Shown here one piece after another: positions 1-49,988 of a DNA stretch of 49,988 nucleotides. The stretch is from the IMG/VR virus record IMGVR_UViG_3300032307_000647, positions 1 through 49,988 of that record; one strand, written 5' to 3'. Position 1 is the stretch's first letter. Each line of letters opens with the position of its first letter. The translations under genes and the position numbers were made by a program. The DNA is from a virus. A model generated the notes under the pieces. The model was not told the DNA's origin. It saw only the letters and a program-made list of their open reading frames with translations, and ran no database searches.

Positions 1-123
1 ATGACCGGCACCCTGCTCGCGCACACCAAACAAGTGCGCAAGGCCGGCGGCGTCTACAGGCTTACCGGCTCGGACGTTCCCGTTACCTACAGGACGTTCA
101 TGCCTTACAGCGTCGAGGTCAGC
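1..123. repeat. Terminal direct repeat, left copy (contig closure)
   Basis: Bases 1-123 are repeated exactly at 49866-49988. The giant reading frame runs through both copies in the same phase. This is what an assembled circular molecule looks like when the assembler leaves an overlap. It could also be a genuine short terminal redundancy, but its position inside a gene favours assembly overlap of a circular or circularly permuted genome. One copy should be removed when counting length, giving about 49,865 bp. Confidence 0.95.
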
Positions 124-12100: not shown

Positions 12101-15100
12101 ACGAGAACCACCACCAGTCCATAGTCAGGTACGGCGACAAGAAGGAAGTGGCGTCGATGAAGGCCTACATCAAGGAGATCAACGACGAGCTCACTCGCAG
12201 GAGAAGGGATCACGCCGCCGCGCCGTCCGACGCAAACAGCCAAAGGATAGCCGCGCTTGAGTCCATGAAGCAGACCGCCGAAAGGGTTCTGTATGTTCGA
12301 TCCGCGCTGGCCGTTCAGCTGTCCAAGGAAAGCAGCCGAAGGCACGGCACCCACTTCGACCATGGCATGCCTCCGGGTACCGGCATGTCCGGAGCTGGCG
12401 GAGCTTACGAGCTTGGCCACTCTAGGACTGGTTGGGGCATGATGACCTCGGCCCTAGGCCTAGACGGATTCGCAACGATCATGGGCGTGGATAAGAACGG
12501 CGAGCTTCCGCTTGGTTTCAGGCGCGAGCCAATAGCCCTCCTCGAAGAAGTTCAGTCTGACGTATTCCAGCACGTCGACTTCTTCGGAGCCTACCAAGAC
12601 GACAAGCTTTTCCTTCCGATCGACGCGAAGGAAATCGAATCCATGGGCAGGTCTTCCGAGCTGGCCGCCCTCGTCGCAGACCATGCCAAGCTCTTGGCCT
12701 TGTCCGACAAGGCTGAAGAAGGAGCCATCGCTCAGCTGAAGAACATCATAGGCAGGGCCGGCCGCGGCATGCCGAGCACCGGAACTAGGACCTTCGATAG
12801 GCTTTCCGCCAAGCTGTTCCTAGATCAGACGGACCTGTTCCAGAAGTCCATGATGCACGAGGCCATGCCTGCGTTGCTGAAGAACACCGGACGCAAGGTG
12901 AAGGTCTCCGACAACATCAAGGCCTCCATAGCTAGGATGACGAACGGCATGGTATCTCCCTCTGAGATATTCGTGTTCGAGTTCGACCACGAGCTGATAG
13001 ACCTCGTCCGTAGCTTCGGAGAAATCAGCAGGACCTCCGTCGACGCAAATGTGTTCGAGTTCATCCAGCAAAGGGCTCTCGAAAACGTCCGCGGCGCGAA
13101 GCACGCCGACCCGTCCGTGCCTACTCATCCTAGGGCGGCCGAGATGAAAGCCAAGATGATCAGGGACCTTGAAGCCGGCAACCTGACCAGCGTGATCAGG
13201 GAACAGCTCAAGATATCCGAGTCCATAATCCACCGGGGCGTCGAGGCTCTCAGGTCTCAAGGTTATGACGCCCTGCGTAACGAGGTCAGGTCGATGGACA
13301 CGATGGGCATACGCGGATCGACGTACAACTTCGTCAAGGCTCTGGACAAGCTGGGTAGCAACTCGTCTGAGATCGGCAACATCGTCGCATCCCACGTCGC
13401 GCGAGCCATGGTAAAGGACGAACAGCTGGCCATGCAGATGGCGGCTTACATCGATGGAACCGGAGCCGTAGACTACGAGGGCCTAGTGGACAGGACCATC
13501 GAGAGGATCCGCAAGGACTACGGAGACAGCAAGTCGTACATAGGTAAGGCCGTGTTGGTCATTCTGGACGAGATGAAGCGCATGCCGTCCGAGGCTAGGC
13601 CGCACTCCACGGCAAACACGGGCTTCGCCAATGTGAAGACCGCCTCGAACAATCCGTACGCGGACAGGTTCCACAACGCCGCCATAGCCATAGACAGGAC
13701 CCTGAGCGACGCCGAGATATCGGACATCGCGTCCAACCTTCCTCCTATCAAGGACGCGAACGGCGACGTGGTGTACGCAAGGGTCGACGGCAAGGGCTTC
13801 GTGATAGGCAACTCCGGCAACACGTTCCGCACGTTCAAGGATCAGATGGACTTCGTCACCTTCATCCGTGACGCGAGGAAGTCTGGAGCCACGAGCGACG
13901 ACATCACCATCATGGTGGCGCCCTATCATAGGCACGCCGGTACTGCCGCAGGAGACTTCGCCAAGAACGTCGTCGAGGTGTTCTCGGCCATGTCCGGAGG
14001 CCCCAAGTTCCTACAGATGGCCGAAGCCAAGCAGGTAGAAATAGCCGGCCTGCGCAAGGAAGTGAAGGAGACCTTCTCTCCGAGCGACTCCGGATCCGTA
14101 AAGACCCCGAAGGGTGACAAGACCATATACCCTGAAGCCATACCCTTCGTCAGGGATGGATTCTACAAGAGCACCCAGCTCATGCTCAATGTGCTGGACT
14201 CCATGAACCACGGCATGCACGGCGTCGGAATACTTGACGCCACCTATCAGCTACAGCGTGGCGGAGGTTTGGCCGAGCCGCAGGGCTGGCTCAAGATCGG
14301 CGGCGGCAAGGGATGGATACTGTCCATTGAAGAGCTGTTCGACGACGTCAGGGACGGAACTAAGTTCGTCAGCGGCGGCCTTCTGGCCTACGAGAAGAAG
14401 ACCGGCAATCCTGCCAACGGACCGGACGGACCTCATGGCGGCTTCCTACATAGGCTTGCCACCATGAACATAGAGTCCGAGCTAGGAACTAGCGCCGACT
14501 CGATAAGGTTCAGCCACAACGGAATCGAAAGGAACCTGCATGGACACCTTCAGCTTGCCTTGCGCCAGCTGAACCTGACGGCTCAAAACTACTTCCCGAC
14601 CGAGTGGACGGCCAAGTTTGAGAAGCTCATCAACGATATGAACGACCCGTTCAGATCCGTCATGGGCAGGCCGCATCAGTACGAAGGCAACAAGAGCATA
14701 GCCATTCCTCAGCGTAGCTCTGGCCCGGACAGGATCGCCTTGAAGATAGGCGAGCAGGGAGGACTGTTCGCTGTCGCAGGACCTTCCGGCGAGTCTGCCG
14801 GCTGGGGCTACATCACGAACTACGGACTTCCGTCCTATGCCTTGGAGCTCATCGCTCCGGGTAGCACGGCTGACTGGAGGGCCAACTACTCCCTAGACCT
14901 GTTTGAAAGGCCGCAGATCAACACCGACGGAAGCTGGCTCGTCCTCACCGACAAGTCCGGCCGCACGATAGACAAGATCGATCAGTCTCAGGCCACGCCG
15001 AGACAGCTCGAAGCTTTCCGCGAGCGGTTCCTCCAGCTGTCGCAGTACAAGGGAAGGAACTGGATGGTTGGCACCTTCCTCAAGGAGTTCGGCCCGGCCG

Positions 15101-15888
15101 GCGGCTACGTCGACTTCGGCGTCGTCGGACCCACGTCCACGTTCCTTGATCCTAGGTTCTCCGCCACTCCGTTCGGCAACAACGGCATCAAGTCTCCCTT
15201 CATCAACATCCAGCCCGACGACGTGCTGGCTCGCATCAGGGCCAAGTACATCGACAAGGGTCTGTTGCCTGTCCATGTGGGAGAAAAGTCCCCCGGATCG
15301 TCGCTACCCGGAATGAGGAACGAGGGATGGAACTCCGGCGACATGCCGGCCATAGCCGAAGAAGCCATGAAGCAGAGGGGCATGATAAGCCCTGAAGCTC
15401 AGACTAGGACCGGATGGTCGGAAGTCGCGTCCACCTTCAAGATTGCCGGCAACTCCACCGAAGAGAGCGTCGAGATCAATCCTCAGGGCGCCATGAGCAC
15501 GCCGATGCTGTACGGAGCCAAGGCCAACGCCAGAGATGGCGGCGGCCCGTTCTTCCACGCCGGACTCAATGACCTGAACCACATTCAGGGACTCGTAGCC
15601 ATGTACTTCCCGAGAGCGGCCCTCGATCCTGCGGCCAGCGCGGCTTACATCATGAGGATGACCAATCCTCTCACCACGACGCTCGTGCACACCCCGCTGA
15701 CTAGGACCAAGGAGCAGGACATACAGTTCCGCCGAAGGGTCATGGAAGGCATCCCGCTGATGCAGATCACCGGCGCCAATGTCGCCGGAGGCGAGTCAAT
15801 CAGCGCCAACGGGGTCAAGAGGCTGGCTTACTTGATGAAACAGCGTGAAATGCTCCCCAAGATCAAACAGCAAGATGAGACCCCCTGA
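1..15888 (+). CDS. Giant polyvalent virion protein, 3' part (residues 992-6286)
   Basis: This is the larger part of a single gene that begins at 46893 and crosses the contig junction. The ATG at base 1 is an internal methionine, residue 992. The part shown here is 5,295 codons and the whole product is 6,286 residues, roughly 0.67-0.7 MDa. Visible motifs are an HEIQH zincin signature (full-length residues 2359-2363), of the type found in large phage polyvalent proteins, and an EEVQSD motif (5173-5178) preceded by a GHSRTGW segment, a layout also known from such proteins. I find no cysteine in the translation. AGG, CTA and ATA codons are abundant. The gene lies after four internal-virion-like genes and before holin and spanin genes. 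By analogy with DarB-type proteins and the 4,600-residue virion protein of Bcep22-like podophages (from memory), it is probably carried in the virion and ejected. Most of its length is unrecognised. Confidence 0.9.
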   Translation: MTGTLLAHTKQVRKAGGVYRLTGSDVPVTYRTFMPYSVEVSIKTHDSEGNPLRSPKGGILIHSVDVAAVNRRLMKTFKRPDVRALFGGNFAEFVDRFNSYVSNQSGLSGAKVPSADLFRAEFGADAEKVRDIMYEAFGGRKRKDDSFINTPADGYLGGADDPNRPFYTMRFDTLADIKVHPTSWNVHSKVQPFPYVHIQGYDGISRNFQITGFTERDMGNGRKYLKDNNGFEIYETKGGYALFDPFAIKVGVFKTAKAAIKRATAELAKVDEADKVEQSDPTINDVGHNDQTLADLEVVSDAMNRGARFHLTGVKDVVIKSMHAGKAVADHINDSIGEKVNEIGYENRPGGTETAFSQKFISLYSMLGDGAKAFDTEVEVDGTKYKIGMSDTQIVVSDPSVGYSKGTEVVGGFQNELIRIDRNWFKDLYAKDKALLQDQLSKRMAYALKVSALHKAGLIPMPTAFTKEAVSSYRAMGEVMLGGGAGSRDTRDAAISKLLEGHGKGMADLAGDIRWVMFDAGDKNKKNWSDNRPSESPNFVPNTFARGGAAITPRWETAFNSFKISSTMASDPRLKPIIEQAMAAKSPEAYAGKVGGELPLYIDITKIALGDADRDALASQLMAAGASRGAFWEFHSKASGIDDIIPALREFIAGSKLGRNESSSRNKLTRAQQLQMGEKARTPMQEGPAKEMVVGYMKSVEELAKRGGMFTKSVAGFFDSEGKLRVDAAGKKTGFVSSVAMMDINDPDVMNVASMSNLYNALKTISEDISNDPANERHKLDYVRVMALIMRITSDESMIFHEFKSLDDRNLAPGSGEIRAKTGLLAGGHSESMDFYTLPPSVAEVVTTPPGLGGIYAYNPVNVNKNTPARFAKIAEERAMHVGDSGVPAMIFGVPKYGEKYSASAIDAGGISHYVATGSQIKAFMSNVKGSAKVTTDPSSLVKTADGIIPAGATNWDGVIPALALQTFAAPGGEAKMKALIPTAQKAVEGTISSVVGWKWKGMMEAARSMARSPESVRASDITMMLKSAGAVGDNMTVLEQLMHGYIDTYSSNSDVRVAGLLRITQSLAIHENLFKAGLDADSFPVDGPAHSLLRSMDVRQTKLTPSSNKYMRMMRQFLKDGSVADVSGDYRIMERQIPGQVSQAGTTGLNVGYGVKSTDTVQQTKLMMLTGSKAIAQLDNARKDELHRLGLIGKMADGFGREFDYFEMSDAKAELNLSRFGGTRDGIITSTMPGGVAVVDRYLDMVAKSIVDGTPTFDMSAQMAIDNHIQTLNIKMSDILSHPELYAFYPQLASMPVKIRFTGDSIAAYNPEKGGSFKIDANFLLEDRLSERLAITGRDEPAKWKDQLSRYFSPEARNERFRRVILHEIQHAIVNAENMIPLVYPSMIDSELVVGTAANIKEPRMAAHTIAALSPNLPVVLGGSDLAPIGGSTQSLITPGGYGDKAFFEAVDKKLIAKMDAMYASSLKLLSFSQRGMDYVIDPLDPTAIKSALSKIVDAPMSIDLMRRVVPNQKLLINKMMAKIGGAYDIISATLSEADRDSAMLRIEAMSELLSAHEAQLDAYAQLIPKYDPAAALKASDSMFWKINDINNDTANFVEYLQGITGVDYDREFGVLKAEVTAGIKISQAKMQMNAGAASMTPESLSKLTTLVYSDLSNLLYSGDLNEFMANTTMARSRMGEAELANAAFPQPQPLHQTMVALARYMDDNYNTRFFGNDAPKLMMIGGSAGSEQMNVSPFGKASENLFRGGVRMMARATLLSHYVSSVNEDIAKYGKLMFTSRGWKIGEDGMPVYVHEVGTLTGAQSALEGFGGAARNLAFNVEGAIRKKTENKGYRVFENVGETFGNFTGSERQANTNLKPIADLIQENDFMPSTEAVHSGPGGTIPFLGGLTSDGKSVTIQDVAKAMGAVVVVEDTIGYRSEVMNALYNSSRRGIPDVISAEKLVDTFKAAGVPDSDIASARLTEIQNKFRGSDLSVGELIDLVAVLHEVPIITSYKGGDSIKSVLVRMLGGSDVSSEMRKLYDYATKENGAYAEVMRSYINWVVGKQTGRNPLTSIFKARIDTAGEGASAGRFFLMDAVKNSILFDWNSSDNIARMIGKENGQKVVDRIVARLIAKYPDANPSHSTGLENLLLKEDTLMSIGTDVSGWEAKERAKVEYLLRFTTRLEKLLMHLTPMADKLAAKLERSIKTGDMLMDNSERSDKMMKLVEEFYSSALEEGLADVLSTSALASGPDGAFQTTREIYRKLEGNRSYTSNQPHESVLKRGYGYAGDSLAAGHMVFHGLIGGANHAFKESAYIGGMMSGMVGTMLFPEGKDAYDSVSAKLLARAYPGMDFSPGSDVPASVEIRRDGTTRSVLRGIGRHTTGEPKEEVSLASALSNIEGKNALRAITNQTDQPAYLLNAVAAQRVLMVKAKALLDYIAKFEGEPGIEYKMRLIKGSSSINASDLETAFSSPELLGILQGADIGPQLVKAKGLLSIAESVNQGAHNIGAGGIVALDQGFWEMPIAIDRDYAGGYKPLAQAAMVRAYTRGGAKKNFVVSSVVEALGSALSSQEALVINNLIGKDTSREGKIAASEPVRVMARTIAIGANLLSETDMYDSPVFLDYASPSFETAMEKRRMPKISRALARAAKSLEGEYDDLADNSYYIARNNYSGGGLHYVLSKGFVNDGFLRRVALSMDGTTLLAAASQILSTATEYDNNKALGSKLRRFVQKDWMPFRWDIGSDIEYAAFSDQMKRDAVTLSASVAASLGAMAIPSMRYPLLGDHRLSSSTSPGAFKDLMEMAKQPDGNFPDEAARDRVESMIHGAMNGMPNGMSMDAMKQLSVLTGLTFLQRQLFDKLGTQFSAKEKLAIEAAVHHAASMMDVVESYDIDPIIVSRKLAPGADPTIPWNWGKISSGVNSASYVANKNKLQYDLFRRAVRSQMDMFSMSQYPARITGMLKDLAQVPGYKRTFKRNSMNGSYSRSEGNVRLVSGIRGDSPHGVSRGGDSGSPTMKLNPEMLEGVSEDESYTHLNTYAGKGVYSSELDGYLPVGEGVSFSGIYAMPSEYEGGVVGALFNMADPIDLIDMDPPEQPGIVQVDVGAAGKSALSESVIRAFVSDTIISQAQRAGAETIEVAPAGVQLSYGGAGTAEFSGKLSHETMDVATAQVHGRGMRTISKTSYQNIHSGRSKKPLLIHGDGGLMGFSGITTGKDDRGGTGYLGDPHRAGEFATKKGYAWKRLPDGRIMINITGDHLGYKVDDMMKRPGRVGYGFSLAEGVGYDPNTGLVIPSNLYSQIVTADYLEAFGHPMAAAFTQKDPAMMQAYIDAAIRDKRGYHHTRGKIPESMQILEKLSTSISGRMGTDVFKEFISDRNIALERRASHAASINEVMAPSSYTTLILPAGMKTEDLAAVLMSIHADPLVGAAIIDGSKRDRGQRAVFEFQLGDHFSGDRNQRGTYRGAYTGKTVIPHASTGPYSRGALVGLKDSVNVAVSQDGHLWSDVYAAASRMLSQDGGYFLPDTERTLSMNGDTGLAITKLFPGRPDLLANAWDTKAGHGIKVWKRSGPKNDPNFRAYVVELNQPSAIAPEGGLVIGKKAVAFKTEAEAIAYSNKVATHATSASTIRALAGNDFRIVDRPKEGGSDKFAPDASVSEIQRVTPQTGRAFQEALEGTGLYRVGDLDEAMSIADARKLGKALGRNAHIEFDTPPVQLRQITGKTMGELESVVRQKLNFGLPQGAMNFASKAMNAIMRGLPPNNRDFTHLTGSDWMNLLKKNGVSKDEIRQTGLGHLLLNSAAVKLSRQDLAEFLAGTYPSLTKSQPAFYGMHAAQQLAAMGAPETESVRGMRGTFVPPYIHDARLQSRANQFHALNAIFEMRDKLDLRVSTSTSDSFKAKAATLQAVMESKLVDFAKVIGVPEELLAETKELKSVLYQALTDATNEQKPFATYDMRGLEMSRFDINDKIKALASDAADGALFSELGDIGPYVRTLMGSDLPKQATTHTVKMHEAAVSDSLKTDYGYGSGLSDVMGQVMHSYGSFPYTSYISGVYENHHQSIVRYGDKKEVASMKAYIKEINDELTRRRRDHAAAPSDANSQRIAALESMKQTAERVLYVRSALAVQLSKESSRRHGTHFDHGMPPGTGMSGAGGAYELGHSRTGWGMMTSALGLDGFATIMGVDKNGELPLGFRREPIALLEEVQSDVFQHVDFFGAYQDDKLFLPIDAKEIESMGRSSELAALVADHAKLLALSDKAEEGAIAQLKNIIGRAGRGMPSTGTRTFDRLSAKLFLDQTDLFQKSMMHEAMPALLKNTGRKVKVSDNIKASIARMTNGMVSPSEIFVFEFDHELIDLVRSFGEISRTSVDANVFEFIQQRALENVRGAKHADPSVPTHPRAAEMKAKMIRDLEAGNLTSVIREQLKISESIIHRGVEALRSQGYDALRNEVRSMDTMGIRGSTYNFVKALDKLGSNSSEIGNIVASHVARAMVKDEQLAMQMAAYIDGTGAVDYEGLVDRTIERIRKDYGDSKSYIGKAVLVILDEMKRMPSEARPHSTANTGFANVKTASNNPYADRFHNAAIAIDRTLSDAEISDIASNLPPIKDANGDVVYARVDGKGFVIGNSGNTFRTFKDQMDFVTFIRDARKSGATSDDITIMVAPYHRHAGTAAGDFAKNVVEVFSAMSGGPKFLQMAEAKQVEIAGLRKEVKETFSPSDSGSVKTPKGDKTIYPEAIPFVRDGFYKSTQLMLNVLDSMNHGMHGVGILDATYQLQRGGGLAEPQGWLKIGGGKGWILSIEELFDDVRDGTKFVSGGLLAYEKKTGNPANGPDGPHGGFLHRLATMNIESELGTSADSIRFSHNGIERNLHGHLQLALRQLNLTAQNYFPTEWTAKFEKLINDMNDPFRSVMGRPHQYEGNKSIAIPQRSSGPDRIALKIGEQGGLFAVAGPSGESAGWGYITNYGLPSYALELIAPGSTADWRANYSLDLFERPQINTDGSWLVLTDKSGRTIDKIDQSQATPRQLEAFRERFLQLSQYKGRNWMVGTFLKEFGPAGGYVDFGVVGPTSTFLDPRFSATPFGNNGIKSPFINIQPDDVLARIRAKYIDKGLLPVHVGEKSPGSSLPGMRNEGWNSGDMPAIAEEAMKQRGMISPEAQTRTGWSEVASTFKIAGNSTEESVEINPQGAMSTPMLYGAKANARDGGGPFFHAGLNDLNHIQGLVAMYFPRAALDPAASAAYIMRMTNPLTTTLVHTPLTRTKEQDIQFRRRVMEGIPLMQITGANVAGGESISANGVKRLAYLMKQREMLPKIKQQDETP
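4102..4116 (+). other. Second zinc-metallopeptidase motif (HEIQH) of the giant protein
   Basis: These codons encode H-E-I-Q-H, full-length residues 2359-2363, in the context VILHEIQHAIV. The hydrophobic residues before HE and after the second H match the helix of zincin peptidases. The LHEIQHAI form is characteristic of phage polyvalent-protein peptidase domains. The third zinc ligand is not obvious by eye; acidic residues follow in the next hundred positions. Proteolysis of itself or of a host protein is inference. Confidence 0.65.
12544..12561 (+). other. EEVQSD motif domain of the giant protein
   Basis: These codons encode E-E-V-Q-S-D, full-length residues 5173-5178, in the context IALLEEVQSDVFQ. 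About 50 residues upstream is GHSRTGW, and about 100 residues downstream is a helix containing HEAMPALL. The order H-x-R, then EE(I/V)QSD, then a helix with a P-L/LP element recurs in large polyvalent proteins of phages and mobile elements. The biochemical function of that domain is not established as far as I know, so none is assigned. Confidence 0.5.
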
Positions 15889-16219
15889 TGCCGACATATC
15901 GAGCATGGCCAAGGACTCGCTGATCTCAGCGACACTTGGCGGCGCGGCGATGGTGGCGCGCATGCTCCTCAGCGACGAGCCGTTGTCGTTGGGATGGATA
16001 ATACGACGCGGATCCGCGGCGATGATAACCGCATCCATCGTGGGCCTAGTCGCTCAGGATTATATCCAGAGCAAGGGCGCGCTGTACGCTTCCATTGGAG
16101 CGGCCGGAGCTGTCGCACCAGAGATCATGGAGTACCTCATCAAGTATGTCCGCGCCAGAGGCGACAAAGAGATATCTCATGCGACACGAAAACAAACCAA
16201 CCGCAAACGACGCAAGTAA
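15875..16219 (+). CDS. Holin, LydA / superfamily III-like
   Basis: A 114-residue membrane protein that probably forms the inner-membrane lesion starting lysis. Three hydrophobic stretches are visible at about residues 15-32, 44-62 and 69-84, followed by a very basic tail (KQTNRKRRK). The central segment, with RRGSAAMITASIVG and a later GAAGAVAPEIMEYL, resembles LydA-type holins, where a hydrophobic hairpin precedes a conserved E-x-x-E/Y helix. The start at 15875 overlaps the giant gene's stop by 14 bases; an in-frame ATG at 15905 would give 104 residues. A spanin-like gene overlaps its 3' end, forming a lysis cassette directly behind the virion genes. Assignment rests on topology, context and general sequence resemblance. 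Confidence 0.7.
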   Translation: MRPPDADISSMAKDSLISATLGGAAMVARMLLSDEPLSLGWIIRRGSAAMITASIVGLVAQDYIQSKGALYASIGAAGAVAPEIMEYLIKYVRARGDKEISHATRKQTNRKRRK

Positions 16220-24712: not shown

Positions 24713-24717
24713 GTTGG

Positions 24718-24992: not shown

Positions 24993-25011
24993 GCTGTTTG
25001 AACTATTTATT

Positions 25012-25087: not shown

Positions 25088-25094
25088 AGTCAAA

Positions 25095-25484: not shown

Positions 25485-25514
25485 GGCAATCCAATGCAGA
25501 TCAGATCGTATCAC

Positions 25515-27799: not shown

Positions 27800-27839
27800 C
27801 TCCAGCTCCAAGAGCTGGAAAGGCTACAAGGGTTGCTAA
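27765..27839 (+). CDS. Lys/Ser-rich 24-residue peptide
   Basis: A 24-codon frame encoding MKKSSPAKKSN, a Ser/Lys run and a GYKGC end. It overlaps the previous gene's 3' end and ends as TAATG with the next start. Without it the start of the next gene would be separated from the previous stop by 39 bases. It is reported because of the tight TAATG junction; it may not be translated. Confidence 0.35.
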   Translation: MKKSSPAKKSNSSSSKSWKGYKGC

Positions 27840-35094: not shown

Positions 35095-35106
35095 TCGTAC
35101 GAGGTC

Positions 35107-40020: not shown

Positions 40021-41388
40021 ATGGCTCGCGAAATATCAACAGAGGCAGACCTAAGGTTTGAGGGCTTCGCAAGCTACCCTAACAGCGGAGCCTTTGAGCC
40101 CAGCACCATGCTTGAGTACGCATCCAACGTGCGCATCAGTAACGGAGTCATAACCCCGCGTGCAGGATCGTCTAAGGCGTACACGGCCGGCCATAACGTG
40201 ACCTACGCCCTTCCGGCCTACGGAAAGACCGGCGACTCAATCCTGCTATTTGGCGCGAACGAGCGATACACCATCGACGGATCTACCCACGTCTCCCTTC
40301 CGGCGCTGGCGACCAAAAGGCCCGTGCGCGGACAAGGATACGCCGACGCTCTGTGCATGGAATCGATCGACACGGACTTCGTAGCTGGCGGCAATATCGT
40401 CGAGCGGCTGGTCACGGCGAAGAACGATCAGCTCAGCTTCACCTTCTACGGCGGCGTTCAGCCCATACCGGCCGACAACCTGAGCTTGGTTCAATGTACC
40501 TATGACCCGATACAGGCCGTAATCACGGGGCACAACTCCGTGTTCGCGTTCGGAAAACGTAGTATTTACGCGGTCAAAGCAGGCATGGGCTATGTCGCCT
40601 CGCAGAAGAAGCCGGACAGCTTGCATCAGGTTCAGAAGCTGAGCTCGCAGGATGGCGTAGCTGGCCCGAATGCCGTCGCCGAGCTTGGCGGCGTGATCGC
40701 GTTCTTCGACGTCAACCGCGAGCCGGGCATCAAGGTGATCAGCGGCGGCAAGATAAACGAGGGCGGAGAGCCCATGAGCAACACGATCAAGGACATCATC
40801 CAGCAGGTAGACTCAAGCCGCTACGCTGAAATACATGCCGTAGGCTACGCCGGAAGGTTCTACTTCTCACTTCCGTTCCAAAACAAGTGGAAGGTGCTTG
40901 TGCTAAACCCTGCACTCAAGGGTATGTTCGAGTCTCTGGACGAGTATCCGTTCAATCCGAACATACTGATGGTTGCCCGCAAGAACGGCATACCGCGACT
41001 GTGGGCGTTCGACACCCAGCACAGGGACCTGTATCTGCTTGAGGACGGAGTGAATGACTCCGGCGGCGGCCATCCTGTGTCTGAGATCAGGAGCCGTAGC
41101 TACCAATTCAGGACTCTCGCCGACAAGAAGTACGATGGATTCTACGTCCAGCTGGACAACGCCACCGGCGCGGCGGTCCAGATAAAAGCCATCACAGTCA
41201 ATCCGGACTCCGAGCAGATGCTTGATCAGTTCTCCAACGCGACCGGAAGCACGATTAGGCGTGGTTTGATTAACAAACGTGCCATGGCCGTGAAGCTCAA
41301 GGTCATTGTATCGGCCGGCAACCCGCGCATCCTAGCCATGGGGGTTGATGGCTCCATGGTCGGACGCTCCTTCTTCAGCATCTACTAA
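40021..41388 (+). CDS. Nozzle-like tail protein (gp10 / tubular protein B type)
   Basis: A 455-residue beta-rich protein. The opening (EFEGFASYPNSGAFEPSTMLEYASNVRI in outline, with VITPRAGS soon after) is the pattern of podovirus tail nozzle proteins, in which an N-terminal strand-turn leads to a beta-propeller-like body. Repeated strand-turn segments (VFAFGKRSIYAV, RFYFSLPF, KVLVLNP, RLWAFDTQHRDLYLLEDG) support the propeller. It lies downstream of the adaptor and fibre genes, where this protein usually is. Two cysteines are seen. Confidence 0.6.
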   Translation: MAREISTEADLRFEGFASYPNSGAFEPSTMLEYASNVRISNGVITPRAGSSKAYTAGHNVTYALPAYGKTGDSILLFGANERYTIDGSTHVSLPALATKRPVRGQGYADALCMESIDTDFVAGGNIVERLVTAKNDQLSFTFYGGVQPIPADNLSLVQCTYDPIQAVITGHNSVFAFGKRSIYAVKAGMGYVASQKKPDSLHQVQKLSSQDGVAGPNAVAELGGVIAFFDVNREPGIKVISGGKINEGGEPMSNTIKDIIQQVDSSRYAEIHAVGYAGRFYFSLPFQNKWKVLVLNPALKGMFESLDEYPFNPNILMVARKNGIPRLWAFDTQHRDLYLLEDGVNDSGGGHPVSEIRSRSYQFRTLADKKYDGFYVQLDNATGAAVQIKAITVNPDSEQMLDQFSNATGSTIRRGLINKRAMAVKLKVIVSAGNPRILAMGVDGSMVGRSFFSIY

Positions 41389-42203
41389 TGCCAATAACCG
41401 ACACCCCGACCAACGATACGAGCCCGACGTCGTCTTACACGATGCCGGTCGTTCATACCGGGTACGATTACAAGATCTACGGCCGCGATATTGGCGCGGA
41501 GATGTCCACGACGCTGGACGCGTATCTCGCCAACGCCAGCAAGTGGGCCAGCACCAATCTAACGCTGACCGGGTCGCTGGTGTCGCAGACTGTAACCAAC
41601 GCCAACGGCCTTAAGTCGATCTTCACGGGCACCATGGGTAGCTCGGCGATATCGCTGGTGCCCACGACCACCGGACAGTCCCTTAGGCTCGACGAGCTGG
41701 CGCTGGCGGCAAAAGCCCTCCTAGAGTCGCCTGAAATCGACGAGTCCGCCAACGGCCAGATATCCGCAGGCCTCAGCGCGGCAATGGGTGGCGGCCATAA
41801 TTCCGTCACGGCCATCAAGGATAGCATCACCTTCGAGCAGAAGCTACAGGCTAAGCAGATTTCCTTTGGTGCATACGCGCAAGCCCTAGACGCTTACTAC
41901 AAGGTCTACACGGCCACCGCGGCCTCGCTGTCGCAGGTCACGGCTCAGAGCTCCGCTCAGGCCGCGCTTACTATTCCGATCGTCGCTCCGTTCGAGTCTC
42001 AGATGGCTTCGGACGTGCTTGCCGCGTGGAACGATTCTCTCAACACCGGCCAGCTCAGAGATCAGCAGATCAGGCAGACGCACGCCGCAGGAACAGCCCT
42101 CGACGGCTTCAATCCGGGAACCAACTTCTCCGCGTGGAACGCCGAGTACGCGCTCGCCTACTGCGGCATCAAGTCCCAAGCCGCCGCCGCCAAAGCCACC
42201 TAA
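41388..42203 (+). CDS. Virion-region protein of unknown function (271 residues)
   Basis: A 271-residue protein starting MPITDTPTNDTSPTS. A Thr/Ser-rich N-terminus leads to long helices rich in Ala, Gln and Ser (EQKLQAKQISFGAYAQALD, and QVTAQSSAQAALTI). The composition is that of internal virion proteins. One cysteine lies near the C-terminus. It starts with TAATG overlap and ends with the same overlap to the next gene, where the cysteine-free block begins. Confidence 0.55.
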   Translation: MPITDTPTNDTSPTSSYTMPVVHTGYDYKIYGRDIGAEMSTTLDAYLANASKWASTNLTLTGSLVSQTVTNANGLKSIFTGTMGSSAISLVPTTTGQSLRLDELALAAKALLESPEIDESANGQISAGLSAAMGGGHNSVTAIKDSITFEQKLQAKQISFGAYAQALDAYYKVYTATAASLSQVTAQSSAQAALTIPIVAPFESQMASDVLAAWNDSLNTGQLRDQQIRQTHAAGTALDGFNPGTNFSAWNAEYALAYCGIKSQAAAAKAT

Positions 42204-43276
42204 TGCAACAACTACAATCACTATACCGGGGCGACTCCTCCCCTTCCCTGTCCCAGATATTTGGGATGCAGTACCAGCCCCAGCAGGCCATATCGCAAGC
42301 GGCCAACACGGCCGTAGGCTCTGGCATGTCTGCCGGCGCGCAGGTCAAAACGACGGCCATGAACAACGCCACGCAGATGGCGATCGCCGACGCGAACCGG
42401 TTCGAGAATCAGAGGCAGTTTAATCTCACCAACAAGCTGTACAACAGGAACGCATCCGAGAACGAGAGGCACAACCTGTCCACGGAAGCCAACGCTGACA
42501 AGATTACGGCGTGGAATACCGGAGGCCAGCAGGCGGCCGGCGATGAAGAGGCGAAGGGTATCATTAGCGCCCAGATAAACGACCTCACCACTACGCTAAA
42601 TAGCCTAGATAAGAACGATCCAAGCTACCAGAAGAAGGCTCAATACCTCAGGGACAGGATCAAATCCATTCAAGATGGAGGCAATAAGGCCGCACAAACG
42701 CGAGGAGGTCTTAGCGGGTTTGCAAAAGGCCTAGCCAACACCTACGCAAAAAACGGCCTGTTCGAGGGACTAGGCAAAGAGCTTACGCGCGTAGGCGCGC
42801 AGGGGCCCACTCCTTCGGCTAAGCCGGTTGCGAAAACGCCTAGCGAGATAAGCCCGGTTGCTGTCACTTCATGGCCGAGCTCGAATGGAACAGTTATATC
42901 GCTCCCCTCAGGATCCAATATCAACTCGTTTAACCTAACCGGAGGATCCGCGCCGGCCACGCTTAGCGGTAGCGTCTTTAACATGACTGGCACGGGCCAG
43001 ACCAACTTGACTGGCGTGACCACGCTCGGCGGACAGCCCGTATCGGGTCCGCTAACCATAGGGCCGTCTAGCCCGGCTACGACTCCACCGGCGACGACTC
43101 CACCGGCGACGACTCCTCCAGCCGGAACTCCACCGGCCGCAACTTCCGGGAGAACCTTCTTCCCGCTAACCCCATCAGCGCCGACTCCGCTCGCTCCCCC
43201 TGCGGCCGCAAGCGGAACTACGTTCTCGTTCTTCCCAAGACCTGCTGAGTTCAGGCCCACTCCGTCCGGATTGTAA
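42203..43276 (+). CDS. Internal-virion-like protein with Pro/Thr repeats, Cys-free
   Basis: A 357-residue protein starting MQQLQSLYRGDSS at 42203 (TAATG overlap). The N-terminal half is Gln/Ala/Asn-rich helix (QAISQAANTAVGSG, then TQMAIADANRFENQRQF). The C-terminal third is a Ser/Thr/Pro linker with a tandem TTPPA motif (DNA repeats of 15 bases at 43079-43138) and a final Pro-rich tail. No cysteine is present. It resembles podovirus internal proteins that go into the capsid and are ejected, but the family is not recognised. Confidence 0.55.
   Translation: MQQLQSLYRGDSSPSLSQIFGMQYQPQQAISQAANTAVGSGMSAGAQVKTTAMNNATQMAIADANRFENQRQFNLTNKLYNRNASENERHNLSTEANADKITAWNTGGQQAAGDEEAKGIISAQINDLTTTLNSLDKNDPSYQKKAQYLRDRIKSIQDGGNKAAQTRGGLSGFAKGLANTYAKNGLFEGLGKELTRVGAQGPTPSAKPVAKTPSEISPVAVTSWPSSNGTVISLPSGSNINSFNLTGGSAPATLSGSVFNMTGTGQTNLTGVTTLGGQPVSGPLTIGPSSPATTPPATTPPATTPPAGTPPAATSGRTFFPLTPSAPTPLAPPAAASGTTFSFFPRPAEFRPTPSGL
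43079..43138 (+). repeat. 15-bp tandem repeat encoding T-T-P-P-A
   Basis: Four consecutive 15-base units, the first two identical (ACGACTCCACCGGCG) and the next two diverged. They encode a Pro/Thr linker within the 357-residue protein. Copy number could vary between strains by slippage. Confidence 0.7.
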
Positions 43277-44526
43277 TGAAGTTCTTTGGCGCAGACCCAA
43301 TACAAGACCTTACTCCTGATCAGCTTCGGAGTATATCGGCGGGATCCGAGCTTGGAGCCGGCCCTGACGATTTGGCGAGGAAGGAAAGGGCGTCGCGCAG
43401 GCTACAGGTAGAACAGCGCAGGTTTTCTTCGCGCCCTGAAGATTCTTGGAAGCCAATAATAGGCGGTGAGGTAGGAAGGCTTACCGCCGAGGGGCTAATA
43501 AGGACAGACACCGCGGCCGACCTGATAGGAGATGTCAGGGTTGCCAAGGGCAAGGCGCTCCTAGGAAAGCTTGGGCCATGGATAGATGTGGCCGGCAATA
43601 TTTACGGAGCCAACTCGGCCACCGCGGCAGGAGAAAGCCCCTATGGAGACGTTGTCTTTAAGAACGGACAATGGGAGATCGCATCGCCCGAGGGAATAGA
43701 CGCCAACTCTATCGCAACCAATACCATTGAAGGCCTAATAAGCGCGGCTCAATGGACCAAGGTTGGAGCAATCCCGGCCAGCCTGTTTGCCGGAGAACTT
43801 ACCGAATCACAGATACACGAAGCGAACAGGAAGAAGGCCCCTAGGCTTGCCGAGATAGCAAATACCCCGGGATACATGGGATCAAAAGCAGAGGTAGATA
43901 CCCTTCTTCGAAATCTTCACGACCTAAGGATAGCTAGCGCGACTTCAGCTCCTGATGAGCCCGGCAAGATGAGCGGTGTGTTCTGGCAAGGCATAAGGGC
44001 AGACGCCAAGGCAGGCTACGATGCTGAGCTGGCTAACATAGCGGCAGACCTGTCGAGCGGAGATGAAGAAAGGATCAGAAGGGCATCCGAGCAGATGCCT
44101 GTCGTTGCCGAGATGATGGACAGGGTTAATGCTGACTTGGAGGCAGTACAGACAAGCTCTCAAGAGTTCACTTGGCCCATCAAGAGATTCGGAGAGTTTG
44201 TGGCCGATGAGGCTCCGAACATGAACATGACGCACTACTTCAGCGGAGACAGGCTACTTGAAACCCTCTCCGGGAATGTTACTAGCCACGGCCTGCTTGA
44301 TTACCTCAAGCCGTCCGGGAAGAACATGAAGCAATACCAACAGCGCAGGCGCTGGTCTGGACAAGACAAGCCGACCAGAAACCAAGGAAGCGCATTGCTG
44401 ATGGAGCTAAGCCAGAGGGCGCATGAAGCCGCTGGCGGAGATCCTGTCATAGCCCGCGACGCCAAGCAAAAGGCAATTAAGGACAATTTTTCCGTAGCCG
44501 ACCCCGGCTATGGCCTTTATCAATAA
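43276..44526 (+). CDS. Internal-virion-like protein, Cys-free, AGG/ATA/CTA-rich
   Basis: A 416-residue protein starting MKFFGADPIQDL, mostly helical, with Ala- and Gly-rich segments (AGNIYGANSATAAGES; GLISAAQWTKVGAIPASLFAG) that could touch membranes. No cysteine is present. Arginine codons are predominantly AGG, and ATA and CTA are frequent, the opposite of the capsid gene. No family is recognised. It starts at TAATG on the previous stop. By position and composition it is a candidate head-interior or ejected protein. Confidence 0.55.
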   Translation: MKFFGADPIQDLTPDQLRSISAGSELGAGPDDLARKERASRRLQVEQRRFSSRPEDSWKPIIGGEVGRLTAEGLIRTDTAADLIGDVRVAKGKALLGKLGPWIDVAGNIYGANSATAAGESPYGDVVFKNGQWEIASPEGIDANSIATNTIEGLISAAQWTKVGAIPASLFAGELTESQIHEANRKKAPRLAEIANTPGYMGSKAEVDTLLRNLHDLRIASATSAPDEPGKMSGVFWQGIRADAKAGYDAELANIAADLSSGDEERIRRASEQMPVVAEMMDRVNADLEAVQTSSQEFTWPIKRFGEFVADEAPNMNMTHYFSGDRLLETLSGNVTSHGLLDYLKPSGKNMKQYQQRRRWSGQDKPTRNQGSALLMELSQRAHEAAGGDPVIARDAKQKAIKDNFSVADPGYGLYQ

Positions 44527-44546
44527 CTCAATAACCTAATACATAC

Positions 44547-45920
44547 ATGGCACTCCAAGCACCAAAACACAGCCCGGCGGCAGAAAAGGAACTACGCGCC
44601 ACCCTTAAGGCAAAAAAGGAACTCATGGAAAAGCTCCTCCTTGAGAATCCGGCATTCAAGGGCGACGCGCCGATCGTGCTTCAAGGCGGCGGAAGGACCG
44701 AGACTGATGAAAGCGTGATAAGGAACCCCGGAGCAAACGACCCGGGTGGCACCACGACAAAGAAGAGCGTAACCACCAATGCAGGGCAGTCCGTGCACGC
44801 AAACACCGCCGCGCAGGATAAAGTGCGATCGACTTTTGATGACCTGAACACATTCATCACGACCGCCGAAGCCGACTTGGCCGATCCTGCTAGGCTCGCA
44901 AACAGGATACCCATAGGCGAAGAGGAGCTAATTGACGTGCTTGGCTCTGGAGTAAGCAACGCTCCCGCGATGGGCAGGGTAAGGACGTTCACCGACCTAT
45001 TGTCCAAAATGGAGACCGGAAGGCCAGAACAACAGGCCCTAATAAAGCTGATACAGGGATCCAACCCTACCGGAGGATATACCTTCCTTCGCAGTCTCAT
45101 GCCCGGCGCTAGGGAGAATGTAGATCTTCTCGCCGAGATAATGCACGGGATGAACAATAAAAACAGGGCCGCCGGCATGCTCAACTTGGACGAGCTTCAG
45201 GCCCTAAGGACGAACGCCCCGTTGCTAGCTACGCCGAATCAAGTCTCAAACGAGATACGAGCTACGGCTGGAGCCGCAGGGGGAGCCTTGCCTGCCGCGA
45301 ACAAGCTCGCAAACCAAGCCGAGCAGGTGGCGGTAAGTGCTCCTGCCGTTGAGAGGAACATCGCCAACATGGGCGCAGACGCGCTCAATCAAATAGGCAA
45401 AAACAGAAGGACGGCAACCATAGGAAGCGTCCTTACCGGCGCCGCCGCCGGAACGACTGCCGCCATGTGGCCGACAAATGACACCACCAAGTTCAATCAA
45501 AAGGCCCTTAAGGCTCTCCTTGGAACCGCATCCATAGACAAAGAGCTGTACAAGACCGATCCGTCCCAAGCCTTGGAGAATGCCTTTGGCGCGTATGCCG
45601 AGCGAGAGTTTGGAAGGAGCAAGAAGAAGCCTCAGTACAGCAGGTATGAGTCAATAATGCAGAAGTACGCCCAGACGCTTGCTAGGCTTGGCGAAGGCAC
45701 GCTAAAGATAACTGACAATGACCAAGGCCTTACCGACCTCAGGAAGGACATCAGCTCGTTCTACGCCCCTTCCGCCGGGTATGAAGGATACAACGCAGAA
45801 AACCCTATCGCGTTCCCGTATATGTCTGGCAACAAGCCCGGAGTCATAAGCATCGACAAGGACATGAAGAACATCGCTAGGCTAAAGGACGGCGAGGAGT
45901 TTGCCGCGTTCGACAACTAA
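44547..45920 (+). CDS. Internal-virion-like protein, Cys-free
   Basis: A 457-residue protein starting MALQAPKHSPAAEKEL at 44547. It has a helical, charged N-terminus, a Gly/Thr-rich linker, a central helical region (LNLDELQALRTNAPLLATP), and a short Gly/Ala-rich hydrophobic segment (SVLTGAAAGTTAAMWP) that could insert in a membrane. Its C-terminus is Tyr/Pro-rich. No cysteine is seen. The 20-base gap before it has no Shine-Dalgarno sequence. No family is recognised. Confidence 0.55.
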   Translation: MALQAPKHSPAAEKELRATLKAKKELMEKLLLENPAFKGDAPIVLQGGGRTETDESVIRNPGANDPGGTTTKKSVTTNAGQSVHANTAAQDKVRSTFDDLNTFITTAEADLADPARLANRIPIGEEELIDVLGSGVSNAPAMGRVRTFTDLLSKMETGRPEQQALIKLIQGSNPTGGYTFLRSLMPGARENVDLLAEIMHGMNNKNRAAGMLNLDELQALRTNAPLLATPNQVSNEIRATAGAAGGALPAANKLANQAEQVAVSAPAVERNIANMGADALNQIGKNRRTATIGSVLTGAAAGTTAAMWPTNDTTKFNQKALKALLGTASIDKELYKTDPSQALENAFGAYAEREFGRSKKKPQYSRYESIMQKYAQTLARLGEGTLKITDNDQGLTDLRKDISSFYAPSAGYEGYNAENPIAFPYMSGNKPGVISIDKDMKNIARLKDGEEFAAFDN

Positions 45921-46903
45921 TGGTCGACCCGGAAGATCTAGACCCGGAGGTCCTAGCGGCCGCCGTGGAGGCCTATCAGAACGGCCTTGGCGGTGCCGCG
46001 CCTGCCGCCGATCAGAGCTTCACTCCGGCAGTCATGTCGGACATGCAGGTCATCAGGGCCATGGGCAAGGATCCCATGGAGTTGCACAGCCCTGACTTTA
46101 TCCGCGAGGCGACGGCATACAGGGCCGCGGTAGGCAAGCAACAGGCACTACAGGCCAAGGCCAACGCCGCGCAGGTCAAACAACAGGAGAAGCTCAACGA
46201 CCCATCGTTTCAGGCCCAGCAGGTCTATGGCAGGCTTGGCAACGTGGGTGCCGCTAGGACCATAGCCAAGTCTAGGGGGCCCGCCCTGTTTCAATACGGG
46301 GAGGTGGTTGATATGGGTAAGGCCGGAGCGTTTTACATGGCTCCATCCGGCTACCTGATGATCCCTGACGGCAAGGGGGGAATGGTTAAGCAGTCGGCCG
46401 AGGACGTCGTCAAGATGGCCGGCGTCAGCGTCATCCCCTATCTGGGCGGCGACGAGGAAGCCAACGACTTCAGGAACACCACGGCCAAGGCATCGTCCAT
46501 CATAGGCTTCATGGACGCCCTTGAGAATCTATACGAGAAGAACAACAATCTCGTGCCCATGTCTAGCGACTACTACAGGGCACAGCAGATCGAAGAACAG
46601 CTGACGCTGGCAGTTACTCAGCTCCGAAGCGGGTCAAAGAGTGCGGCCGGCATATCCGACATCGAGATGGAAGCCATCAAGAGGACGCTTCCGCGCAGGA
46701 CTGACTTCAGGGAGCTCGACAGAGACTCTAGGATCAAGCTGTCCCAGACCAAGCAACAGCTGTTGGCTCTCATCATGGATAGGGCTCGCCGAAATGGCAT
46801 TGATCTCAGGCAGATAAAGCAGCAAGGTAACGTACCGACGGCTCAACCACAGGCCGGCGGAACAATAACCTCTCCTATATCTGGCCTAGTTCATGGACGC
46901 TGA
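45920..46903 (+). CDS. Internal-virion-like protein, Cys-free, precedes the giant gene
   Basis: A 327-residue protein starting MVDPEDLDPEVLA (TAATG overlap). It has a helical Ala/Gln-rich region (QALQAKANAAQVKQQEKL), a central compact region (GAFYMAPSGYLMIPDGKGG), then a long helical part (QIEEQLTLAVTQLRSGSKS). The C-terminus is Gln/Pro/Gly-rich. No cysteine is seen. The giant gene's ATG lies 11 bases before the stop, so the two may be translationally coupled. Function unknown; presumed ejected or head-interior. Confidence 0.55.
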   Translation: MVDPEDLDPEVLAAAVEAYQNGLGGAAPAADQSFTPAVMSDMQVIRAMGKDPMELHSPDFIREATAYRAAVGKQQALQAKANAAQVKQQEKLNDPSFQAQQVYGRLGNVGAARTIAKSRGPALFQYGEVVDMGKAGAFYMAPSGYLMIPDGKGGMVKQSAEDVVKMAGVSVIPYLGGDEEANDFRNTTAKASSIIGFMDALENLYEKNNNLVPMSSDYYRAQQIEEQLTLAVTQLRSGSKSAAGISDIEMEAIKRTLPRRTDFRELDRDSRIKLSQTKQQLLALIMDRARRNGIDLRQIKQQGNVPTAQPQAGGTITSPISGLVHGR

Positions 46904-49900
46904 TCAACAACCTCAACCGCAAGAAGAAAAGCCTAGCCTAGATGGCCTAGACATACAGAAGACGAGGGAGCTTCTAGCAAGACAGGGAGTGCCGATGATG
47001 ACGCCGGCCCTCCCTGATTTTTATCAGGGTCAGGATCCGGTACAGCAGGAGCCCAACGCTCCGACCGGCATAGCCGCACAGGCCGTCACGGGCAAGGACG
47101 TGTACGAGTACTTCCAAGCGCATCGTAATGGTCCGAACAAAGTAAGGTTTTCGTACGACGAGCAGGGCGCTAAGGCGTTCGGCATGATGGTGGATTACAT
47201 GCGTAGCCGTGACTCGCATCTCTTTGACACCGCATCGATGGCTCTAGGCCAGATGGTCAACGAGATGACGGAGGGCGCAAACGCTATGCCGAACCCGTTC
47301 ACAGATCCGCTTAAGGCTGGAGCTACGGCCGCGGAAGGATTGGCGCGAGGCATAAGGGATATCTACGGAGTTCTGGCTGAGTCCGAAGATCCGACTAGCC
47401 CGTTCTTCAAGTTCAGGAACTATGCGGCAAGGCTTCTAGGCAAGGACGACGGCGACGTCTACTCGCAGATGAGGCAGTTCCATCTTGCTGTCGATTTCAA
47501 CGACGCAACCTACGACAAGACGTCCGTTCTCGCAGACATTCTCCCTGAGGGATGGCGAGACCACTTTAGCAAGTATGTAGATCAGAAGGCCGCGATAGGT
47601 CTTTCCTACATCGCCATGGACCTTCCTGAGTTCATACTCAGCTTGGGTTCGTCCACTCCGGCGACTGCGGCAAGGCTGGCCGCGACCAGCGGATCCAAGG
47701 CGGCTCGCATGGCCAAGGGAGAAAAGATGTACGCCGCTTGGGCCGCGGCTACTACCGATCGAATCGGTAGCTTTGGCCAGCGCGTCATGGGCAACACCAT
47801 GGAAGCCGCGGGCGGAGCTATCAAGGCCCCCTTCAAGGCCATCTATGGAACTAGTCAGGCCGCCGCACAGATGGCCGGAGACTATGCCGGAAACGCCGTT
47901 CGCAACATGGCTACGGCTGAGATCGTCGAAGCTGGCGTTCAGATGACCGGCATGGGCCCGACCAATCCGGCCATCGGTTTCTTCCGTAGCTTCGGCGCGG
48001 AAGCCATGGGCGAGCTCTTGCAGGTCGCTGGTCAGGACATGGTCGACAGGTCGCTCGGCAAGACCATGGTCAAGTCGGACTCGCTCGGCATGACGACGCT
48101 TGAGCGCCTTGCCAGCGGCACGGCCAAGGGCGCGGAGAGCATGTCTAGGGAAGCCCAGATACTCGCGAAGGGCGTGAACGCCGCCGTCGGCTGGGCCCCC
48201 TCCCTGTCTGGCGCGACGCTGAAGACGATGTTCAGGGATGGCATGTTCGGTGCGGCCTTGGGCTACGGCAACTCGACCGAGGAAGGCATGGGTGCCGGCC
48301 TTGCGATGGGTGCGGCATGGGGAGGCATGACCGGAAGCATCCGCCATCTACACTCTTACACGACCTACACGCCGCAGGACGCGCGCGTCGTAGACAACTT
48401 TAGGGACTACGTCATTCCTGCCTTCGGCCGCATAATGGGCCCGACCAGCATGGAGATGGCTAGGCGCTTCCATGACAAGGTAAACAGCTTTGGCGATCTA
48501 AGGACCAGCTCCATCGAGCTCTCCCACCTGTCCACTCTAGTGGCCCACGAGGCCAGCTTGGTTGGAGAAGGCAACGTCATGTTCTACTTCGGCAACAGCC
48601 CGCAGGAGTTCATGAACGTGATGGCCGAGTCTAACATCAAGCCTCAGGACTACGACAAGGTTGTCGGCGCGTTCGCGTCCCTCAGCGAAAGCTCTGCGGC
48701 CGGCATGTTTGAAAAGATCACCCTCAACGACGGATCCGTCAAGAGGCTGATCGCCATCAACTCCGACATGTACAGGCCCACCACGGCCAGACATGAGATA
48801 ACCCACGCCCTGTTCAGGTCTGTCGTCGAGGCCAACTCGGAGATGGACTCCGTCATCAACAAGGAGACGGGCAGGTACATGGGCGATGTGTTTAATCCCT
48901 CCTACGCCAGCAGGATATTCGGAACCTCGAAAGACCTAGGCGTAATGCCGGACGCCGCGTGGCAGTCCCTGATGATCAGCTATGGCGCGGCCCAGATGTG
49001 GACCGAGTTCGGCAAGCCGGACGACCCCAAGATAGTTGGCAAGATAGGCGAGATGGCCAAGGCGGAGTATGGCGAGCTTCTCACTAGGATAAGGGGCCAC
49101 CTCAAGAGGGGCGTGGACATGCAGAACTACGAGGTCGTCAATGACTTCATCCGCGCCACGAACATGGCCGAGGAGGCCTTTGCCTACTACGCCTCCGGCA
49201 CGTCCAACGTTTTCGCCGTAGACAAGTACGTCAAGGATCCGGCAGCCCGCAACCTGCTCAGGGGATGGGCAGAGAACAGGGCTGCTAGAAAGAACAGCCG
49301 CATCCTGTCGTCGCTTGAAGAAGCTGGCGTAGAGATCAGGGCTAAGTTCACCAACGCGGACGGATCCCCTAAGCTGTTCGACGACGCCGGCAACCCGGCC
49401 ATCGAGACCTTTATGTTCGACGACGGCATCGTCGTCAGGACTCCGGGCATGGACTCGTGGGTTGAGTCTGTACTTAAGCAGGCCTACGCGCGAAGCGAAG
49501 TCCTCGTCTCGACGCTAGATCCCTTCAGGCAGGAAGCCTTCGCCAAGGAACACGGCAAGACCCACTTGTTTGCGCCGGTGCGCAACGGGGGTATGAAGCT
49601 CAAGTCTCCGGCCGAGCTGGATGAAATATCCAAGGATCAGGCCGCTAAGATTCTCGACTCCATCAACAAGGTGAACGAGCAGGTCAGGCCCGTCGTCGAG
49701 ACCGGCCCAGATGGATCCAAGAGGATCAAGCTAGAGAACGCCAACGCCGAAACCATTCAGGCCATACAGGCATCCGGAGCGCTCACCCCTCAGGAGTTCA
49801 ATGAGCTCCTAGCCATCGTCAAGGTGGCTGAGAAGAACAGGGCTGGCGACGTCACGTTCAACGTTATGACCGGCACCCTGCTCGCGCACACCAAACAAGT

Positions 49901-49988
49901 GCGCAAGGCCGGCGGCGTCTACAGGCTTACCGGCTCGGACGTTCCCGTTACCTACAGGACGTTCATGCCTTACAGCGTCGAGGTCAGC
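46893..49988 (+). CDS. Giant polyvalent virion protein, 5' part (residues 1-1032, overlapping the left end)
   Basis: Start of the 6,286-codon gene that continues at base 124 of the window; residues 992-1032 are shown at both ends. ATG 46893 (MDADQQPQPQEEK) lies in the 3' end of the preceding gene. From 46893 to 49866 is exactly 991 codons, so the phase is preserved into base 1. The N-terminus is Gln/Pro-rich; Ala/Gly-rich segments (around 245-330 and near 460-490) could insert in or pass membranes. A first zincin motif HEITH sits at 634-638, and EEAFAYY at 760-766 may include a third metal ligand. No cysteine is present. Together with the downstream part this is by far the largest gene of the genome. 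Confidence 0.9.
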   Translation, partial: MDADQQPQPQEEKPSLDGLDIQKTRELLARQGVPMMTPALPDFYQGQDPVQQEPNAPTGIAAQAVTGKDVYEYFQAHRNGPNKVRFSYDEQGAKAFGMMVDYMRSRDSHLFDTASMALGQMVNEMTEGANAMPNPFTDPLKAGATAAEGLARGIRDIYGVLAESEDPTSPFFKFRNYAARLLGKDDGDVYSQMRQFHLAVDFNDATYDKTSVLADILPEGWRDHFSKYVDQKAAIGLSYIAMDLPEFILSLGSSTPATAARLAATSGSKAARMAKGEKMYAAWAAATTDRIGSFGQRVMGNTMEAAGGAIKAPFKAIYGTSQAAAQMAGDYAGNAVRNMATAEIVEAGVQMTGMGPTNPAIGFFRSFGAEAMGELLQVAGQDMVDRSLGKTMVKSDSLGMTTLERLASGTAKGAESMSREAQILAKGVNAAVGWAPSLSGATLKTMFRDGMFGAALGYGNSTEEGMGAGLAMGAAWGGMTGSIRHLHSYTTYTPQDARVVDNFRDYVIPAFGRIMGPTSMEMARRFHDKVNSFGDLRTSSIELSHLSTLVAHEASLVGEGNVMFYFGNSPQEFMNVMAESNIKPQDYDKVVGAFASLSESSAAGMFEKITLNDGSVKRLIAINSDMYRPTTARHEITHALFRSVVEANSEMDSVINKETGRYMGDVFNPSYASRIFGTSKDLGVMPDAAWQSLMISYGAAQMWTEFGKPDDPKIVGKIGEMAKAEYGELLTRIRGHLKRGVDMQNYEVVNDFIRATNMAEEAFAYYASGTSNVFAVDKYVKDPAARNLLRGWAENRAARKNSRILSSLEEAGVEIRAKFTNADGSPKLFDDAGNPAIETFMFDDGIVVRTPGMDSWVESVLKQAYARSEVLVSTLDPFRQEAFAKEHGKTHLFAPVRNGGMKLKSPAELDEISKDQAAKILDSINKVNEQVRPVVETGPDGSKRIKLENANAETIQAIQASGALTPQEFNELLAIVKVAEKNRAGDVTFNVMTGTLLAHTKQVRKAGGVYRLTGSDVPVTYRTFMPYSVEVS
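48792..48806 (+). other. First zinc-metallopeptidase motif (HEITH) of the giant protein
   Basis: These codons encode H-E-I-T-H, residues 634-638, in the context ARHEITHALF. The local helix pattern fits a zincin. MAEEAFAYYASG, about 122 residues later, has an E-E-A-F-x-Y-Y element like the acidic ligand helix of some peptidases, but the spacing is long and this is uncertain. It is a separate domain from the HEIQH domain 1,725 residues further on. Confidence 0.6.
49866..49988. repeat. Terminal direct repeat, right copy (contig closure)
   Basis: Exact copy of bases 1-123. See the left copy for interpretation. Joining the ends here gives one uninterrupted reading frame. Confidence 0.95.

Follow-up and report, generated by a model that had tools for sequence, protein, structure and literature searches.

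What keeps cysteine out of five adjacent genes in the late region of a viral genome? The question is raised by the window analysed here, i.e. the whole 49,988-nucleotide stretch of IMG/VR record IMGVR_UViG_3300032307_000647 (positions 1 to 49,988). The last and by far the largest of the five genes leaves the window at one end and continues at the other. A 123-bp direct repeat is present at both window ends (1-123 is identical to 49866-49988, inside the giant gene), and the terminal overlaps in relatives measure 38-127 bp. The repeat thus corresponds to the overlap of a circular (or permuted) assembly, and the giant gene was read across the origin. The genes of interest are the following.

40021..41388, plus strand: gene immediately preceding the module, product of 455 aa with 2 Cys that weakly resembles a C75C1 protein annotated as head closure (Hc3)
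41388..42203, plus strand: boundary gene, 271 aa, one Cys (residue 259, near the C-terminus)
42203..43276, plus strand: predicted ejection protein of 357 aa without Cys; about 6 relatives have a recognisable counterpart (26-56% identity)
43276..44526, plus strand: predicted ejection protein of 416 aa without Cys, matched by BLAST in a single relative
44547..45920, plus strand: predicted ejection protein of 457 aa without Cys, matched by BLAST in a single relative
45920..46903, plus strand: predicted ejection protein of 327 aa without Cys, the best conserved of the small members
46893..49988, plus strand: giant gene, residues 1-1032 of 6,286, HExxH at residue 634
1..15888, plus strand (new sequence 124-15888): giant gene continued, HExxH at residue 2359, 0 Cys
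15878..16219, plus strand: gene directly 3' of the giant, holin-like (PHROG match, E 5e-4)

A preliminary description had read no cysteine in the five products, and the computed count is exact on this point: TGT and TGC are absent from all 7,843 codons of genes 42203, 43276, 44547, 45920 and the giant, with 1,557 residues in the four small products together and 6,286 in the giant, which has no internal stop. At the rate of 13 other late genes (36 Cys in 4,464 codons) 63 cysteines would be expected, and the chance of finding zero is about 10^-28 (10^-27.6). A composition model based on position-specific base frequencies raises the expectation to 103. The other five reading frames of the same DNA contain 115-515 TGT/TGC, and 1,641 codons of the block are one base away from a Cys codon, none being Cys. 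Codon counts and off-frame TGT/TGC exclude chance or composition as an explanation. A general avoidance of cysteine in virion proteins is excluded as well, as portal, capsid and tail genes contain this residue. The counts given previously for portal (5) and capsid (4) are correct, while that for the large terminase TerL is 8 rather than about 9; gene 40021 has two and gene 41388 one. The next longest Cys-free run in the window genome is 554 residues. For each small gene alone the zero is weak evidence, since only 2.6-3.7 Cys are expected in each, and it is the relatives that settle the question.

A TerL search of viral contigs yielded 220 relatives, of which 27 more or less complete genomes were taken; they share the gene order of the window. 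In 18 genomes the small genes that follow the 41388 orthologue and precede the giant encode 26,525 residues without any cysteine, and the orthologues of 45920 are Cys-free in 29 of 29 loci checked. The 23 giants (window included; 5.3-6.5 kaa, with identity to the window's from 56% down to 18%) contain 76 Cys in 135,042 residues, i.e. 0.056% versus 0.91% in five core late genes. As the relatives' giants carry 0-10 Cys each, the exact zero in the window giant is the low end of a strong depletion. Near-zero cysteine is the rule for giants, and the exact zero is partly luck. The positions of these cysteines are scattered, the commonest Cys column being common to 5 of the 23. Among substitutions counted in eight genome pairs, those involving Cys number 41 of 22,384 in giants versus 40 of 2,521 in core late genes (p 4e-19). 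Scattered positions and substitution counts together mean that cysteine arises and is then lost, i.e. that purifying selection is at work, which is absolute in the small proteins and slightly leaky in the giant. The selection against cysteine in a co-located set of genes proposed in the preliminary description is therefore borne out by the counts in relatives. In the window's complete relatives the longest Cys-free run also lies within the block or the giant. The boundary of the block had been called sharp because of the one Cys in 41388. This cysteine is present, but the 41388 orthologues have 0-3 Cys each (14 in 4,947 residues, or roughly one third of the rate in core genes) and are thus intermediate, which makes the module boundary graded. 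Gene 41388 is possibly the outermost member of the module. One relative (G025, contig of L066) has near its Cys-free module a 327-aa open frame in which 22 residues (6.7%) are Cys; this frame directly precedes the 40021 orthologue.

Which phage carries this module? Its late genes are arranged in the order TerL, portal, scaffold, capsid, tail region, 40021, block, giant and holin-like gene, and judged by TerL, capsid and this gene order the phage is of podophage type. The window capsid shares 24-29% identity with those of phiM5, Venkman, phage tf and Vibrio podophages (e.g. KIT05), and the window TerL and capsid match the PHROGs of those proteins. Homologous major capsid protein and terminase would place the phage in the LUZ24-like/Zobellviridae lineage. 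No close member of its family was found in the annotated phage collection, and the family is known solely from metagenomes. A TerL search among bacterial genomes returned no host; we infer a Gram-negative one. The holin-like gene 3' of the giant places the module between tail and lysis genes. The late-operon slot between tail genes and lysis/fibre genes is that expected of a podovirus ejection module, and it is the slot of the internal virion proteins of T7, LUZ24, phiM5 and ICP2.

Known ejection proteins were counted in the same manner. No cysteine is present in N4 gp50, gp51 and gp52 (4,294 residues), P22 gp7, gp20 and gp16 (1,309), SP6 gp35-37 (2,487) or P-SSP7 gp15-16 (2,082). A single one is found in T7 gp14-16 (2,261) and in Sf6 gp11-13 (1,326), and four in epsilon15 gp15-17 (2,394). 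The ejection proteins of the seven phages pooled have 6 Cys versus 125 expected at the rate of the other late genes of those phages (p 1e-34). The median log2 ratio is -6.1 for Cys and -0.9 for the next residue, Trp; in other words, the Cys median is down about 65-fold, and for no other residue is it lowered more than about 2-fold. Exclusion of cysteine is thus found in all the proteins with which the preliminary description proposed a comparison (T7 gp14-16, P22 gp7/16/20 and the N4 virion RNA polymerase). Three RNA polymerase proteins of crAss001 have 5 Cys in 6,102 residues. C75C1, which has the nearest annotated capsid, encodes a Cys-free series of 728, 244, 2,769, 375 and 1,343 aa. When genes were called mechanically, the longest Cys-free run coincided with the ejection/internal-virion cluster in 9 of 9 reference podophages (T7, SP6, N4, P22, ICP2, KIT05, LUZ24, Venkman and phiM5), the cluster of ICP2, KIT05, LUZ24 and Venkman being assigned by annotation and position rather than by experiment. 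Three phiM5 internal virion proteins have been detected in particles. Scaffold proteins, which are not ejected, are often Cys-free too (T7, P22, SP6, LUZ24, Venkman, phiM5 and P-SSP7), perhaps on account of their entry into and exit from the procapsid, so that the mark is not exclusive and its specificity is limited for single short genes. The claim that lack of cysteine marks the ejected set without homology accordingly stands for the longest run of a genome, with the reservation that scaffolds often share it.

The block shows the near-total exclusion established here on known ejection proteins, and it occupies their slot. From these two features the block is very probably the ejected set, in partial agreement with the preliminary description; the support is good but indirect, the assignment being made by analogy, as no homology was found. 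Comparison of the block with 36 reference proteins and searches with Pfam, PHROGs, PDB profiles, Foldseek and hhalign gave no credible match to a known ejection protein. Homology is not a strict requirement for membership, since known ejection proteins that are unrelated to each other have no mutual homology either. It often fails for ejection proteins because they evolve fast, as is the case for 43276 and 44547. In the relatives, the small genes that immediately precede the giant rank with the fastest-evolving, while TerL is 80-97% identical, and relatives sought with gene 44547 alone were not found. The 45920 product is retained in relatives at 23-46% identity. Its model is mostly helical (pLDDT 79), with no significant match in a fold search, and the small block proteins showed nothing resembling a transmembrane segment.

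The giant is besides Met-rich (4.3%) and Trp-poor (0.7%). At least 90% of the 23 giants retain its two HExxH motifs (residues 634 and 2359). The alignment of the first region shows no variation in the HExxH, in a Glu further on or in about 50 other residues, and the model of this region (pLDDT 73) has the HExxH on a helix preceded by two strands. Sequence and model suggest that both sites are zincin-like. The model of the giant shows many strands. A fold search with a 674-residue region gave nothing significant, Pfam recognised no other domain in the giant, and no further fold or homologue was obtained with Pfam, PHROGs, PDB profiles, Foldseek or hhalign. A weak match between residues of about 2890-2968 and the StenR_269 giant (hhalign, E 2.8e-6) was discarded, as it relied on a single-sequence template and the alignment was poor on inspection. 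An outgroup whose TerL is 65% identical has, as homologue of the N-terminal region of the giant, a Cys-free protein of 1.4-1.6 kaa, which adjoins a Cys-free gene of 440-569 aa. The two forms differ by about 4,700 residues in size and share cysteine exclusion.

We consider it probable that the five genes encode internal virion/ejection proteins of a podophage of the LUZ24-like lineage, from which cysteine has been purged mainly on account of the oxidising periplasm. With 41388 the set could comprise six genes. These proteins would be made late, packed in the head and would exit together with the DNA. The small ones likely form a conduit through the host envelope, and the giant, a putative multi-domain protein with two zincin-like HExxH sites, likely enters with the DNA. 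Unfolding, refolding and assembly of the chains would take place away from the reducing cytoplasm and chiefly in the oxidising periplasm, where disulfide formation is fast. Cysteine would be a liability for chains refolding there, and hence purged. Periplasmic oxidation as the main cause is the best but less certain part of this reading.

Another cause could act on the same ejected proteins, namely threading through the portal/tail channel or long, dense storage in an oxidising medium, where crosslinks would jam ejection. This is possible but unlikely. Tape measures use the same channel as ejection proteins and are poor in cysteine as well (lambda gpH 0 in 853 residues, T4 gp29 0 in 590, P2 T 1 in 815 and TP901-1 0 in 937), and the Lactococcus phage TP901-1 has no Gram-negative periplasm to cross, although only about 3 Cys would be expected in its tape measure. 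Tape measures leave via the tail into the envelope. DarB of P1 and Alt of T4 are head proteins injected through long contractile tails; stored in the head and passed through the tail tube, they have near-normal cysteine, with 9 in 2,255 and 3 in 682 residues, respectively. Passage through the tail is thus insufficient, and the data agree better with exposure to the envelope. As a sole cause, the unfolded tail passage of the earlier suggestion is disfavoured, whereas its periplasmic part would be in better accord with the counts. The preference for the envelope over tail passage is a lean and not a proof, as it relies on two proteins and one phage of a Gram-positive host. The proteins might also share no fate at all if long, Ala-/Met-rich dynamic proteins merely use little cysteine, as scaffolds do. 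The frequent lack of cysteine in scaffolds and the low Trp of the block (0.68% versus 1.64%) go in this direction, but a general drift of composition agrees poorly with the 65-fold effect confined to cysteine in the seven phages and with the unused codons one step from Cys. Moreover, giants with two zincin-like sites and many strands in their model do not resemble a scaffold coil. We regard this explanation as very improbable.

The giant could instead be an N4-type virion RNA polymerase that inherited its lack of cysteine with the family, as proposed for StenR_269. Its size, absence of cysteine, HExxH domain and position are like those of N4 gp50 (PMC5512222; PMC10747016). No RNA-polymerase family of Pfam or PHROGs was matched by the giant, and neither N4 gp50, in the segments compared, nor a T7-like single-subunit polymerase core was recovered, the single-sequence N4 profile used being of limited sensitivity. 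The nearest small form, in the outgroup relatives, is just 1.4-1.6 kaa. A polymerase of this type is therefore improbable. Sulfur saving or a mutational bias that strips Cys codons has a negligible probability and is refuted by three observations: Met is raised in the block (3.98% versus 2.55%), TGY is frequent in the other frames and the neighbouring genes are normal in cysteine.

Phage proteins that are released into the host envelope, both ejection proteins and tape measures, may in general be recognisable by their lack of cysteine whatever their homology, with oxidation in the envelope and not tail passage as the cause. Such a signature would suffice to name the ejection cluster of an unknown phage from its sequence alone; we would give this generalisation an even chance. 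If true, cysteine exclusion has acted in this family on a giant whose size is about 4,700 residues away from that of its outgroup form.

Among known systems, the N4 module (Schitoviridae; gp50 vRNAP of 3,500 aa, gp51 and gp52) is like the block in combining a giant with small partners, Cys-free and in a late-gene position. The window giant is about 1.8 times longer, with four to five small partners versus two in N4, and no sequence relation or polymerase signature is detectable in the block. T7 gp14-gp16, SP6 gp35-37 and P22 gp7/gp20/gp16 share with the block the end of the structural operon, the near-total exclusion of cysteine and the longest Cys-free run of their genome. In contrast, no sequence or fold match to them was found, no lytic transglycosylase was recognised in the block, and the giant has 4.8 times the length of T7 gp16. 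LUZ24-like phages, Zobellviridae and StenR_269/DES1 have a related capsid and the gene order of the window, but their large internal proteins measure about 0.9-2.3 kaa (records counted) and show no convincing homology to the block. The giant further resembles phage polyvalent proteins (PMC5512222), being very large, encoded near virion genes and, as judged from sequence and model, endowed with zincin-like HExxH domains and an invariant later Glu as third ligand. No named effector, ART, helicase or methylase domain was recognised in it, and the P1 polyvalent examples DarB and DdrB contain cysteine, unlike the window giant. Iyer et al. 2017 (PMC5512222) describe the zincin-like domain as the one most often present in phage polyvalent proteins, including N4 vRNAP.

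The lack of cysteine in N4-like vRNAP has been published and suggested to ease passage through the tail or periplasm (PMC3715699, PMC2784036, PMC3915230, PMC4837373), and these papers cite Kazmierczak 2002 for it. Cys-free large internal proteins have also been reported in StenR_269, DES1, PA11, HP1 and ICP2 (PMC10747016). In the open-access literature we found no statement of a module-wide exclusion across the T7, P22 and N4 lineages, and cysteine is unmentioned in a review of ejection proteins (PMC8954989) and in an N4 structure preprint (PMC12633501). Within this literature, the lack of cysteine was known for single giants (N4 vRNAP, StenR_269). A rule at the residue level that holds from T7, P22, N4 and SP6 to a cyanophage and LUZ24-like phages offers a cheap way of listing candidate ejected proteins in unknown phage genomes. 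The old remark on the N4 RNA polymerase also becomes open to testing, as the question whether disulfide chemistry in the periplasm limits phage entry. The 6,286-residue giant is a candidate addition to the largest known ejected phage proteins.

Some observations concern the rest of the window. The early region (15889-28380) contains DnaC-like loader, RusA, HTH and PDDEXK genes; those of its genes that were scanned included no recognisable DNA or RNA polymerase. Four tRNA genes (Gln, Leu, Arg and Met) are present on the minus strand (17308-17466, 17933-18006 and 25012-25087). The late gene at 38795-40018 encodes 407 aa with 18 Trp (4.4%) and had no BLAST match in the other genomes fetched; its product is a candidate receptor-binding protein. 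An open frame of 504 aa lies antisense to the capsid gene (33799-35313, minus strand). This frame is open in 12 relatives too (about 480-690 aa) and is probably a by-product of codon use.
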